From: Rhodanobacter thiooxydans
Lineage (GTDB): Bacteria; Pseudomonadota; Gammaproteobacteria; Xanthomonadales; Rhodanobacteraceae
Assembly: GCF_030291135.1 (NCBI RefSeq)
Contig: NZ_CP127409.1
Location: forward strand, 620,001 to 684,000
DNA: 64,000 nucleotides
Reading direction: 5' to 3'
Shown here: positions 22,118-57,836 of the stretch, piece by piece
Layout: each line of letters starts with the position of its first letter
Numbering within the stretch: the stretch's first letter is position 1
Made by a program: the position numbers and the translations under genes
Notes under the pieces: model-generated
Databases searched by the model: none
What the model was told of the DNA's origin: nothing
Seen by the model: the letters and a program-made list of their open reading frames with translations, nothing else

Positions 22118-22156
22118 GCGGGTGTAGCTCAATGGTAGAGCTGTAGCTTCCCAAGC
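22118..22156 (+). tRNA. tRNA-Gly(CCC), 5' exon (nt 1-39), interrupted by a group II intron
   Basis: Acceptor strand GCGGGTG, D arm (AGCTCAATGGTAGAGC), anticodon stem GTAGC, loop TTCCCAA (anticodon CCC) and the first two bases (GC) of the 3' stem strand. The sequence then departs from tRNA at 22157 into GTGCGAC, the group II 5' boundary. Joined to 24818-24852 it gives a perfect 74-nt tRNA-Gly including CCA, with anticodon stem GTAGC/GCTAC fully paired. The break lies between bases 40 and 41 in standard numbering. Confidence 0.93.
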
Positions 22157-22583
22157 GTGCGACACGAGCCGTGTACACGCGTAAAGGCAACCAGGGCCTC
22201 ATAGCCTGGTAAACCGAAGCCCCAAGCACTCCATTGTGCGCAAGGCGGGACACGGCCCGAATCCGTGACACGATGCGCCGGTAACCGGGCAATTGGTGGG
22301 CAATCTGCTCGCCAACCTCGGTATCGACGCGGTACACGGCGAACGCCGTGCGAGTAATTGTCAGTCGGCCTCGTGCCGAACTGACCCGGTGTTCAGCCAC
22401 CGGTAGCTTAGGAGCAGTGCGGAACTGGAAACGGTTCTGTGCCAAGCGCTCTGACAATGTAGCCACCCTCACGGGTACGCTGGTCCCGCGAGGGGCCGGC
22501 GTGACCTCGGAAGATGCATCCGAGTAGGCGCTAGGCTGTGCAGCAAGGGTTAGCGCAAGCGAACCATCGTCTTAAACGTCGTC

Positions 22584-22589
22584 AAGCTA
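22584..22589 (+). other. EBS2 of the group II intron
   Basis: AAGCTA is the exact reverse complement of TAGCTT at -13 to -8 of the 5' exon (22144-22149). It lies about 60 nt 5' of EBS1, the usual order in domain I. The cargo tRNA has TTGCTT there, one mismatch at -12. Confidence 0.7.
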
Positions 22590-22640
22590 ACTGGGCCAAA
22601 GGCATTTGATAGGCCCTGCCCAAAATGGGACGAGGTCGGA

Positions 22641-22663
22641 CATTCCCCTGCTTGGTGGGAATG
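22641..22663 (+). other. EBS1 hairpin of the group II intron
   Basis: Stem CATTCCC/GGGAATG closes a 9-nt loop CTGCTTGGT. GCTTGG (22650-22655) is the exact reverse complement of CCAAGC at -6 to -1 of the 5' exon (22151-22156). A 6-of-6 match presented in a hairpin loop is the textbook EBS1 form and confirms the 5' splice site. Confidence 0.85.
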
Positions 22664-22982
22664 CGCTGATGGAGTACCTCCGGCGAAAAGATGGAACCCT
22701 AGCTACACTGTTACTTGTACGGAACGTGGAAACCCCGATAGGCTGTCGTCACTCCGGTGCCGACTAGACATCCCGCAAGGAATGTTGAAGGCTTAGCGGG
22801 CACAGGATCGCGGAGAAAGCGAAGGCCCGACTGTAATGGTCGGGATAGGGGATGAAACGATCGCCCCGACCCGAAAGGGTGCAGACTTCCGCGTGGTGGC
22901 CTGTCGCTAGACAGGCCTGACAACCAACTCCCGATGGGGCGACGCCCCCATCAGGGGGGCGTCCATCCCCAAAGGGTCATGG

Positions 22983-23056
22983 GCGGGTGTAGCTCAATGG
23001 TAGAGCTGTTGCTTCCCAAGCAACTGACGAGGGTTCGATTCCCTTCACCCGCTCCA
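22983..23056 (+). tRNA. Intact tRNA-Gly(CCC) inside intron domain IV (cargo copy)
   Basis: 74 nt with encoded CCA. Acceptor GCGGGTG/CACCCGC, D arm, anticodon stem GTTGC/GCAAC, loop TTCCCAA, T arm GAGGGTTCGATTCCCTT. It differs from the spliced host tRNA at only two positions: A to T in the 5' stem strand and T to A in the 3' strand. Together they swap one A-U pair for U-A (pair 29:41), so folding is kept. The second change is the first base after the intron insertion site. No separate promoter is evident. It lies 16 bp upstream of the IEP start. Confidence 0.95.
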
Positions 23057-23072
23057 ACTTTGGAGGACTGAT

Positions 23073-24698
23073 ATGGACGCCAATACCCTTGGCGATGTCG
23101 CCTCCGCGCGCTGGAACCAGTGGCACACGATCCCGTGGGCCGAAGCGTTCCAACACGTCAGGAGGTTGCAGGCACGCATAGCGAAGGCAGCAAAGGACGA
23201 AAACTGGCGCGCCGTGAAACGGTTGCAAAAGTTGCTAGTCCGCTCGACTACCGCACGAGCAGTCGCGGTGCGTCGAGTTACGGAGAACCAAGGCCGGAAG
23301 ACCCCCGGTGTGGATGGCCTCACTTGGTCCACACCCAAGGAGAAGTGGAAGGCGATATCAGCGCTGGATTCGCGCGGGTACCGTCCCAAGCCACTTCGCA
23401 GGATCCACATCCCGAAAGCCAACGGCGGGAAGAGGCCCTTGGGCATACCGACGATGAAGGACCGAACCATGCAGGCGCTGCACTGGCTTGCACTCGATCC
23501 TGTCGCGGAAACCCGAGGTGACCTCAACTCGTACGGCTTTCGCTCCGGACGCTCAACGGCAGATGCCATCGCCCAGTGCCACAACGCACTGAGCCGAGAA
23601 CATTCGCCGCAATGGGTACTGGAGGGCGATATCAAAGCGTGCTTCGACAACATCAGCCATGACTGGCTGGTGCGCAACGTGCCGATGGATCGGCGCTTGC
23701 TGGAGAAGTGGCTCAAAGCCGGGTTTGTGGAGGGTCGGAAACTGTTCCCGACGGATGCAGGTACGCCACAGGGCGGGATCATTTCCCCGTGCTTGGCAAA
23801 CCTGGCGTTGGACGGCATGGAGCGGATGTTGAAAGACAGCCTCCCACGCCGGGACAAGGTGAATTTCATCCGGTATGCGGACGACTTTGTGGTGACTGCG
23901 ATCTCGAAGGAGGTCTTGGAAGCCAAGGTCAAGCCGCTGATCGTGGGTTTCCTATCCGAGCGCGGATTAGTGCTCTCGGAAAAGAAGACAAAAATCACTC
24001 ACGTGACGGAGGGGTTCGATTTCCTTGGCTGGCATGTTCAGAGGCACAAGAAATTTCTGAACATTGTCCCGTCGAAACGAAACGCCAAGGCGTTCTACGC
24101 AAAGGTCAGCGATCGGCTACGCGAGTTACGAGGTGCAAGGCAGGACGACGTGGTGTTCGCCCTCAACCCGATTCTCCGGGGATGGGCCAACTACCACAAA
24201 ATCGTGCATGCATCACGGACGTTTGCGAAGCTCGATTACCAGATCACGCGCGCGCTATGGCGATGGGCAACGCGTCGGCATCCCATGAAGGGCAAGCGTT
24301 GGATCAAACGGCGGTACTTCCGTCGAGATGATTCCCGCGACTGGCTCTTTCGGACGGATATGTCCAACCTGATGCATTTGGCCAAGATTCCTATGGTCAA
24401 ACACGTAAAGGTTAGGTCCGACACCAACCCATACGACCCAAAGGACGAGGCCTACTTCGACGAGCGACTGACTCGGCGGATGCGGTCCACTCTGCAAGGA
24501 CGCAGGAGGTTGCACTGGCTGTGGAACAGACAGGAGGGCATCTGCCCAATCTGCTCCGCCAAGATCACCAAGACCACAGGATGGAATGTTCATCATGTGG
24601 TGTGGAGGGTCTATGGTGGGTCCGACAAACTGTCCAACCTGCAGTTGCTCCACCCGACGTGTCATACGCAGTTGCACGCGCGTGGTGCGAAGGGATAG
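23073..24698 (+). CDS. ltrA: Group II intron-encoded protein (RT / maturase / HNH)
   Basis: 541 aa, intact; GGAGG lies 9 nt before ATG. Reverse transcriptase domain about residues 60-340: GFRSGRSTADAI, LEGDIKACFDNISHDWL, GTPQGGIISPCLANLALDGM, and YADD at 268-271 (catalytic Asp pair). Domain X/maturase follows (NPILRGWANYHKIV; ITRALWRWATRRHP). C-terminal HNH nuclease has paired CxxC zinc ligands (CPIC at 491-494), HHVVWRVYGGSD and LLHPTCHTQLH. It should splice the intron, cut the target's second strand and copy RNA into DNA. Codon use is less GC-rich than the neighbours, fitting a mobile origin. Confidence 0.96.
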   Translation: MDANTLGDVASARWNQWHTIPWAEAFQHVRRLQARIAKAAKDENWRAVKRLQKLLVRSTTARAVAVRRVTENQGRKTPGVDGLTWSTPKEKWKAISALDSRGYRPKPLRRIHIPKANGGKRPLGIPTMKDRTMQALHWLALDPVAETRGDLNSYGFRSGRSTADAIAQCHNALSREHSPQWVLEGDIKACFDNISHDWLVRNVPMDRRLLEKWLKAGFVEGRKLFPTDAGTPQGGIISPCLANLALDGMERMLKDSLPRRDKVNFIRYADDFVVTAISKEVLEAKVKPLIVGFLSERGLVLSEKKTKITHVTEGFDFLGWHVQRHKKFLNIVPSKRNAKAFYAKVSDRLRELRGARQDDVVFALNPILRGWANYHKIVHASRTFAKLDYQITRALWRWATRRHPMKGKRWIKRRYFRRDDSRDWLFRTDMSNLMHLAKIPMVKHVKVRSDTNPYDPKDEAYFDERLTRRMRSTLQGRRRLHWLWNRQEGICPICSAKITKTTGWNVHHVVWRVYGGSDKLSNLQLLHPTCHTQLHARGAKG

Positions 24699-24742
24699 GC
24701 TGCCGCTCTGTCAGCGGGTGCTGATCGAGTTCTTGGCTGCTT

Positions 24743-24817
24743 GAGCCGTATGAGGCGAAAGTCTCACGTACGGTTCTTAGGGGAGGGGGTGGCCGCGAGG
24801 CCACCTCCTCACCCGAC
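24743..24817 (+). ncRNA. Group II intron domains V and VI
   Basis: Domain V is 24743-24776: 34 nt, opening GAGCCGTATGAGG (AGC catalytic triad), GAAA tetraloop, closing CTCACGTACGGTTC. Domain VI is about 24777-24817: stem GGTGGCC-GCGA-GGCCACC extended by G-rich/C-rich strands. An unpaired A at 24811, seven nt before the 3' end, is the likely branch point. Both domains are undamaged. Confidence 0.92.
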
Positions 24818-24852
24818 TACTGACGAGGGTTCGATTCCCTTCACCCGCTCCA
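24818..24852 (+). tRNA. tRNA-Gly(CCC), 3' exon (nt 40-74)
   Basis: TAC completes the anticodon stem (GCTAC with the 5' exon), followed by the T arm, CACCCGC acceptor strand, discriminator T and CCA. Apart from its first base it is identical to the 3' part of the cargo tRNA. The rimB gene starts 34 bp further on. Confidence 0.93.
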
Positions 24853-32881: not shown

Positions 32882-32989
32882 GCGTATCTCCGGTTAGTGC
32901 GAGGCTCTTGCGAAGAATCCGGCCATGGATGGCCGGCCTGCTGCGAAGGGACTCGCGTAAAACAACCGGGCGCCGTTGTGGAACGTGCC

Positions 32990-33090
32990 GCGCCGAGCCT
33001 GGCCGTTTTTGTGAAGGGCCCGCACCGGGAGGTGGGGATTTTGCGGATGGGATCCGCCTTCACGGCAACGGTCGCAGCGCCCCTCGGCGG
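32990..33090 (-). ncRNA. S-adenosylhomocysteine (SAH) riboswitch
   Basis: Read on the minus strand: CCGAGGGGCGCTGCGACCG opens the aptamer, an internal variable hairpin with TTCAC/GTGAA-type pairing follows, and GGCCAGGCTCGG closes it. The CCGAG/CTCGG outer stem and the GCGCTGCGAC core are the hallmark of the SAH aptamer (Rfam SAH_riboswitch). It ends about 110 nt before ahcY, the standard target. Between them a hairpin ACAAC/GTTGT with TTTT, and a strong one near 32919-32938 (CCGGCCAT/ATGGCCGG), could form the expression platform. Confidence 0.93.
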
Positions 33091-33106
33091 GCAGTACAGA
33101 GGGGGC

Positions 33107-44408: not shown

Positions 44409-44609
44409 GGATATTCCTCCTGCAGGATAGGCAAAGAGGAACGAAGGAGATGGCCGACGGGATTGCCGGACCGTTGACCTTCGCCCCCGCGGGCGAACCG
44501 GTGTTGCCGCGGGCAGGCGAAGCCGGCGCGAGGCCCTGGGGCAGCGACGCGCAGGCATCGGTGTTCCCCCGCGGAAACGCCAGGCCGGGCGGAAACGCAA
44601 GTGGGCGCT

Positions 44610-44800
44610 TCCGGCTGAGGCAGGTATTCGGGCTCGTGGACGTGTTGCGCGGCCTACTGTCCGTCGCTTCCCGGATGCATCGCATCCAGTGCCTGTGACG
44701 GAGGTCGTTTCCACATACCGCTGCGGGGCAGCGCCGGATTCGCACCGGCTTCCCTTGAGGCCGTCGCTTCACTCACATGAGGCGACGGCTACCATCAACG
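44610..44800 (-). ncRNA. Cobalamin riboswitch
   Basis: Minus-strand reading: GGGAAGCCGGTGCGAATCCGG, then GCTGCCCCGCAGCGGTATGTGG, the conserved core of the B12 aptamer. The B12 box GAGCCCGAATACCTGCCTC is at about 44617-44636. A hairpin GCCGTCGC/GCGACGGC (44760-44789) precedes the core. It lies about 200 nt upstream of metE. Adenosylcobalamin binding should turn metE off. Confidence 0.95.
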
Positions 44801-44806
44801 TTTCGC

Positions 44807-44835
44807 AAATTAGACGTATGGACGTCCAAAGTCAA
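44807..44835 (-). promoter_or_regulatory. metE promoter with two tandem met-box-like 8-mers
   Basis: On the minus strand TTGACT (44830-44835) and TAATTT (44807-44812) stand 17 bp apart, just ahead of the riboswitch. Between them, two adjacent 8-mers AGACGTAT (44812-44819) and GGACGTCC (44820-44827) each match the MetJ met box AGACGTCT at 6 of 8. Whether this organism has MetJ is not known from the window. Confidence 0.5.

Positions 44836-57473: not shown

Positions 57474-57836
<363 letters not shown>

Follow-up and report, generated by a model that had tools for sequence, protein, structure and literature searches.

Group II introns that split tRNA-Gly genes and carry an intact tRNA-Gly matching the split gene's anticodon

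Some elements make good the gene that they enter: integrases restore the transfer RNA (tRNA) gene entered, and engineered recoded-rescue drives recode their rescue copy against their own cutting. The element described here appears to be another such case. It is a group II intron in a 64,000-nucleotide stretch of the Rhodanobacter thiooxydans genome (assembly GCF_030291135.1, contig NZ_CP127409.1, positions 620,001 to 684,000 of the forward strand; 'the window' below, within which all coordinates are counted) that interrupts a tRNA-Gly(CCC) gene within the anticodon stem and bears, as its cargo, an intact tRNA-Gly(CCC). Integrases rebuild part of the gene by DNA recombination, whereas this intron is an RNA-based retroelement with a whole second gene. 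We read it, with a probability of about two in three, as a homing retrointron carrying a complete, recoded replacement for the tRNA-Gly gene that it enters, where the cargo would likely supply the interrupted tRNA and is predicted to be a poor homing target.

The group II introns found at the stop codon of groEL, which we take to be the Azotobacter vinelandii type, resemble it in forming the sister reverse transcriptase (RT) lineage in our trees, in the domains of their open reading frame (ORF), in the RF02012 domain I family and in being site-specific. They differ in target, ATGATGTA at the groEL end, directly followed by the intron start GTGCGAC, where many of the outside relatives treated below sit; ARAGORN found no tRNA in the groEL-site loci. 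According to the portion of PMC4424553 available, most bacterial group II introns sit outside housekeeping genes. Organellar introns of tRNA genes, the matK-bearing chloroplast trnK intron among them, are in the same portion likewise described as group II introns with a maturase gene in domain IV; chloroplast MatK has lost its RT motifs, unlike the ORF here, and that portion mentions no tRNA copy inside the trnK intron (PMC4424553). Group I introns of bacterial tRNA genes, such as that of Synechocystis tRNA-fMet, are likewise mobile and lie in the anticodon region (PMC3073962, available portion). They differ in using another ribozyme and a DNA endonuclease. We know of no replacement tRNA in these group I introns. 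A search of the literature on introns in tRNA genes and on tRNAs in introns, with most subscription journals outside its coverage, returned no bacterial group II intron that both interrupts a tRNA gene and contains a tRNA. The design is a group II intron by the features tested, with a new way of living.

The 39-nucleotide 5' half of the split gene, GCGGGTGTAGCTCAATGGTAGAGCTGTAGCTTCCCAAGC (22118-22156, plus strand, as for all parts of the element), is followed at 22157 by the intron start GTGCGAC; the intron, 2661 bases of the form GTGCG...AC (22157-24817), ends in ...CACCCGAC, and the 3' half of the tRNA, TACTGACGAGGGTTCGATTCCCTTCACCCGCTCCA, occupies 24818-24852. Joined, the two halves form a full tRNA-Gly(CCC) according to ARAGORN. 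The single intact tRNA in the window (ARAGORN) is the cargo, a tRNA-Gly(CCC) complete with CCA at 22983-23056 (anticodon 23015-23017; Rfam, 72.2 bits), which we place in domain IV because it is located within the intron, before the ORF. That ORF (23073-24698, 541 amino acids, YADD in translation) passes the TIGR04416 cut-off and matches the RVT_N, RVT_1, GIIM and HNH models, as an intron-encoded reverse transcriptase/maturase with an HNH domain. Rfam matched part of domain I (group-II-D1D4-7, RF02012) at 22385-22531 with 105.8 bits and E 3.4e-21, and domains V and VI (Intron_gpII, RF00029) at 24741-24817 with 66 bits, the latter match ending at the final intron base; both families scored above gathering in the window and in all seven further loci given to Rfam. 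A24811 is presumably the branch point, which it fits by the usual distance. The earlier note, made from the letters of this DNA alone, had described the tRNA exons, the GTGCGAC start, a 74-nucleotide tRNA-Gly(CCC), the RT/maturase/HNH ORF and domains V and VI, and sequence, ARAGORN, Rfam and protein models bear out every one of them, at its coordinates where it gave any.

Exon recognition fits the same assignment. Exon-binding site (EBS) 2, AAGC at 22584-22587, is complementary to the intron-binding site (IBS) 2, GCTT at 22146-22149, and EBS1, GCTTGG in a hairpin loop at 22650-22655, to IBS1, CCAAGC at 22151-22156; jointly these pairings span the anticodon loop minus one base plus two inner stem pairs, a stretch common to most tRNA-Gly(CCC) genes examined. 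A candidate EBS3 is A22688, from comparison of columns with the groEL-site introns, and T24818, the first base of the 3' exon, is the putative IBS3. By its ends, which fit the GUGYG...AY consensus, its ribozyme domains, RT/maturase and EBS-IBS pairing, the element is a group II intron of the retroelement form. A single swapped pair in the anticodon stem distinguishes the split gene (GTAGC/GCTAC) from the cargo (GTTGC/GCAAC): T23010 of the cargo stands against A at tRNA position 28, and A23022 against T at position 40, the place of IBS3. Inspection by eye suggests a possible hairpin (23050-23077, loop ACTT) between CTCCA at the 3' end of the cargo and TGGAG in the ribosome-binding site of the ORF; it might link processing of the tRNA with translation of the RT. 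A consensus scan upstream of the cargo found no promoter (0, against 0.9 in shuffles).

The genome assembly is one contig of 3.52 Mb with 51 tRNA matches (Rfam). Run on the stretches around the other 50, ARAGORN gave 49 genes, among them two Gly(GCC) and one Gly(UCC), with one lacking a clear anticodon, and no Gly(CCC). Apart from the cargo, which is the sole intact tRNA-Gly(CCC) found in this genome, the split gene is its only gene for that tRNA. Across the genus the tRNA-Gly(CCC) pattern matched 44 of 45 genomes, with two copies (split gene and cargo) in the three intron-bearing genomes (G000, G149 and G192) and a single uninterrupted copy in the other 41, so that the empty sites the earlier note had proposed to look for in related strains do exist. 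At two intron-free loci (L108 and L111) the 30 bases upstream of the uninterrupted gene are those of the window. The stem is GTAGC/GCTAC at 28 of the 29 fully read intron-free loci of the genus. In the intron-free genome G150 (L103, G150:C29:62711-62748), with flanks resembling those of G151, the native place holds the cargo allele GTTGC/GCAAC, identical over 74 bases to the cargo of the window, which may be the trace of a past replacement or an independent double change.

Relatives were collected by an RT search of 233 genomes of the family (E up to 1e-100; 9 tRNA-site loci), by a scan of genome contigs (37 tRNA-site loci in the best 80 of 243 relatives) and by an RT search of 369 genomes of the class (E up to 1e-195; 3 further tRNA-site loci). 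From 49 fetched loci of the tRNA-Gly clade we removed six duplicate contigs, L022 and L053 (Ns in both tRNAs), leaving 41; L146, L147 and L184 are repeats of loci already in the set. The layout of the window, proposed earlier as something to be sought in other genomes, recurs in all of them: each of the 41 loci, of one RT clade, has an intact tRNA-Gly cargo and a split tRNA-Gly gene (ARAGORN). The 5' exon ends inside the anticodon stem of tRNA-Gly in 41 of 41 loci, EBS1 is GCTTGG in 41 of 41, and EBS2 is AAGC in 40 of 41. The intron starts with GTGCG in all but one, which has GCGCG, and the 34 ends read are AC (14) or CC (20). At L062 the 3' exon is missing at a contig end and only the 5' half of the target is visible; the 40 joined target genes with both halves visible are all complete tRNA-Gly, 39 CCC and one UCC (ARAGORN). 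The cargo has a complete cloverleaf with a Gly anticodon in every locus (in L057 without CCA, at the junction with an island), and its anticodon is that of the target in 41 of 41 (for L062 judged from the 5' half only).

The RT tree leaves out L035, in which no RT frame with YADD was found, and unites the other 40 loci, those with a usable RT row, in a single clade with support 100/100 against 17 relatives; a quick tree of 91 rows likewise unites the tRNA-site loci. The hosts named in the records include Rhodanobacter, Mizugakiibacter, Solimonas, Piscinibacter, Duganella, Gallionellaceae, several Rhodocyclales and Thiohalobacter (G469, by an identical RT protein record). ARAGORN found no tRNA-Gly in the loci of the 17 outside relatives; one outside locus (L013) has a tRNA-Pro elsewhere. 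The relative L185, with an RT 62 percent identical to that of L140 in the clade, has no cargo, and its loop GCTGAA fits a non-tRNA site, TTCAGC.

A link between cargo and target comes from G469, which has two copies of the intron: L137 lies in tRNA-Gly(CCC) with a Gly(CCC) cargo, and L140 lies in tRNA-Gly(UCC), where the exon ...CAGCCTTCCAAGC is followed by GTGCGAC, with a Gly(UCC) cargo. The EBS2 of L140 is AAGGC, for GCCTT, when read by eye, against AAGC for GCTT in the other 40 loci; its EBS1 is unchanged, since CCAAGC is common to both anticodon loops. The comparison indicates that target, EBS2 and cargo anticodon changed together in G469, where the Gly(CCC)/(UCC) pattern matches only the two cargos. 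The surroundings of L140, with an RtT RNA (RF00391) upstream (L140 50-183) and a tRNA-Thr(GGT) downstream of the split gene, are as in a tRNA operon. Searches for further Gly(UCC) introns gave only G469's own two copies in 11 genomes of its order, one additional relative, the cargo-less L185 with another target, in 57 genomes of the order of G543, and one match, outside any tRNA, in a 398-genome sample of the phylum.

In most cargos a difference at one pair of the anticodon stem removes the common form of the homing site. We took this form as GCTTCCCAAGC then T, or, for UCC, GCCTTCCAAGC then T, and compared the cargos with a pool of 149 uninterrupted genes of the class sample, which are the 150 rows among the matches listed less the G543 row, itself a cargo. 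The pattern behind the pool admits only genes with a common T arm in which the pair adjoining the loop is C-G or G-C, and it covers position -10 through +1 and beyond, without -11; the cargos were judged also at -11, although the 36 that depart from the form are already separated by -2 and +1 alone. These 36 of 41 cargos stand against 14 of the 149 pool genes (Fisher, P = 5e-22 by locus, a value that is too strong because loci share ancestry; the same test gives 1e-13 on distinct cargos, 21 of 26, and 1e-9 on distinct stem-loops, 13 of 16). In 28 cargos the base at +1 is A or C and GC is retained; in the other 8 the loop-adjacent pair is flipped (GG...CC), spoiling one position each of the EBS1 and EBS2 pairings. 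The tRNA fold is kept: among 23 distinct 74-base cargos 477 of 483 stem cells are paired, and 7 of 21 pairs have changed on both sides. For the intron RmInt1, IBS2 and IBS3 are necessary for homing and dispensable for excision (PMC3123198, available portion). Introns of subgroup IIB pair +1 (IBS3) with an EBS3 base in the coordination loop. The candidate EBS3 column is A in all 41 tRNA-site introns, whereas in 30 groEL-site introns it is T in 24, C in 5 and unread in one. Identifying EBS3 by co-variation within the tRNA clade was rejected: L026 and L046 are set apart from the other loci by a single column, and that column is exon base -12.

The cargo sequences are diverse, 26 being distinct across the 41 loci, and close RT relatives may have different cargos (L032/L042 and L044/L051). 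In four loci of the Rhodanobacteraceae lineage (L001, L003, L027 and L004), the cargo of the window included, the cargo equals the host target gene of L026, and the L138 cargo is identical to the target gene of L137. In the 37 loci compared, 2 to 21 bases distinguish the cargo from the joined gene of its own locus; in L057, where an island has also entered the cargo, the two are identical over the part read. To judge from these sequences, the cargo is exchanged.

We propose that intron RNA and protein would reverse-splice into the anticodon-loop region of a tRNA-Gly gene, and that the precursor could then be spliced, restoring the host tRNA; alternatively, RNase P and 3' tRNA processing would cut the cargo from domain IV, or both routes may be taken in different molecules. 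Since group II introns broken in domain IV can still splice in trans, maturation of the cargo need not kill the ribozyme. Whatever the splicing yield, the cargo would likely keep tRNA-Gly of the matching anticodon supplied. In most copies the changed anticodon-stem pair preserves the tRNA fold but alters the target, either at IBS3 or within IBS1 and IBS2, and a rescue copy recoded in this way would rarely be entered by its own intron. What the sequences show is the anatomy, the clade, the anticodon match and the departure from the common site form; splicing of the split gene, maturation of the cargo, its rescue of the host and its resistance to homing are inferred from them. A fuller reading, to which we give even odds, is that of a natural recoded-rescue homing drive: a retrointron clade aimed at the Gly tRNA anticodon loop, with a substitute that follows the target in its anticodon (CCC or UCC), is recoded in its stem against the clade's own homing, and can replace the host allele, yielding a resistant host (as G150 may show) and setting off rounds of change in cargo and target.

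Besides the shared ancestry of the loci, several points weigh against the replacement reading. tRNA-Gly(CCC) is dispensable in Escherichia coli, and a costly insertion site is less sure for this tRNA than for tRNA-Gly(UCC); the earlier proposal that the cargo offsets the cost of insertion is thus backed in its replacement part, by the anticodon match in all 41 loci and the joint switch in G469, and is less sure in its premise of a harmful site. The switch to UCC is known from one genome only. Five of the 41 cargos (L035, L040, L044, L057 and L138) retain the common site form, and two of the 40 targets have A at +1, which would not pair with the candidate EBS3 A. The targets alone fail to show a requirement for T at +1, since T is about equally common there in uninterrupted genes (135 of the 149 among the matches listed, against 38 of 40 targets), and in groEL-site introns the candidate EBS3 is no strict partner of +1, L063 and L067 having C with A at +1.

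Other explanations account for parts of these data. In 38 of 41 loci the cargo immediately precedes the ORF, and in the window its CTCCA could pair with the TGGAG of the ribosome-binding site, as might be expected if the tRNA served to mark a cleavage point (tRNA punctuation), releasing the RT message or curbing the activity of the intron, with no replacement of the host tRNA; yet any tRNA would do for such an RNA-processing device, and the cargo is a tRNA-Gly with the target anticodon in 41 of 41 loci, and UCC where the target is UCC, so that we consider this unlikely. It is also quite unlikely, in our estimation, that splicing by itself supplies the host, the cargo being a passenger whose similarity is maintained through exchange with tRNA genes of the host. 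The 40 of 40 joined genes that make a complete tRNA-Gly would suit this explanation, as would the cargos identical to host genes elsewhere (the L026 and L137 targets); on the other side stand an intact cargo in every locus with many different sequences, stems preserved through paired changes and a consistent shift away from the usual form of the site, and replacement fits better than a chance passenger because of the joint switch in G469 and the anticodon agreement throughout.

The departure itself might serve some end other than homing resistance, such as lowering recombination between the two copies, which would delete intron parts, or avoiding a decoy exon for EBS1 and EBS2, and the 2 to 21 differences between cargo and joined gene are what lowered recombination would ask for. 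The close relatives of the window, however, differ at one stem pair only and so keep long identical stretches, and across loci the departure lies at pairs 28:40 and 30:38, touching IBS3, IBS1 and IBS2; we rate this explanation as very improbable. As for artefacts, of which the earlier note had named a wrong assembly join and tandem tRNA-Gly genes with an ORF but no ribozyme, we found nothing in their favour and give them next to no chance. A joining error is made unlikely by the single 3.52-Mb contig and the same layout in two other genomes of the genus, and assembly error in general is ruled out by the recurrence of the layout in many independent assemblies; tandem genes with an unrelated ORF are ruled out by the ribozyme domains present in the window and in further loci.

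Under the replacement reading, the clade suggests a route for an intron into a gene that the cell needs, which is to bring a substitute. If true, recoded-rescue gene drives would have a counterpart in nature, and the clade would allow a test of how a homing element leaves the cargo that it carries untouched. It would also raise the question of how intron RNA copes with a tRNA cut from its middle. In the window the spliced and cargo tRNAs can be told apart at known bases (A28/T40 against T28/A40).

Three loci (L036, L050 and L057) were considered as cargo-less copies and rejected as such, the cargo being found across an inserted island in L036 and L057 and on another contig in L050. At L036/L143/L144 (G600:C30) and L057/L141/L142 (G601:C23) the intron is cut in the T arm of the cargo, with the parts about 90 kb and about 22 kb apart, respectively, on one contig each, and a phage-integrase-family ORF follows the intact cargo. 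This arrangement indicates that the cargo tRNA is the attachment site of the island at L036 and L057; the same cannot be inferred for L050, since its two parts are on different contigs. As for carriage of the intron by phages or plasmids, no phage or plasmid record reached 80 percent coverage of the stretch, coverage by the best unannotated phage contig was 4 percent, and two exact patterns had no matches in viral contigs. The copy in Mizugakiibacter sediminis (L029/L009) has one in-frame TAA in its RT frame and may therefore be immobile; its cargo tRNA is intact. The excluded L022 lies on a contig filed under Planctomycetota that shows 7 mismatches in 4663 bases against L026 and is likely mis-binned. 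Elsewhere the window holds ordinary RNAs: RNase P RNA (57474-57836, plus strand), a cobalamin riboswitch (44602-44812, minus strand) and an S-adenosylhomocysteine (SAH) riboswitch (32961-33091, minus strand).

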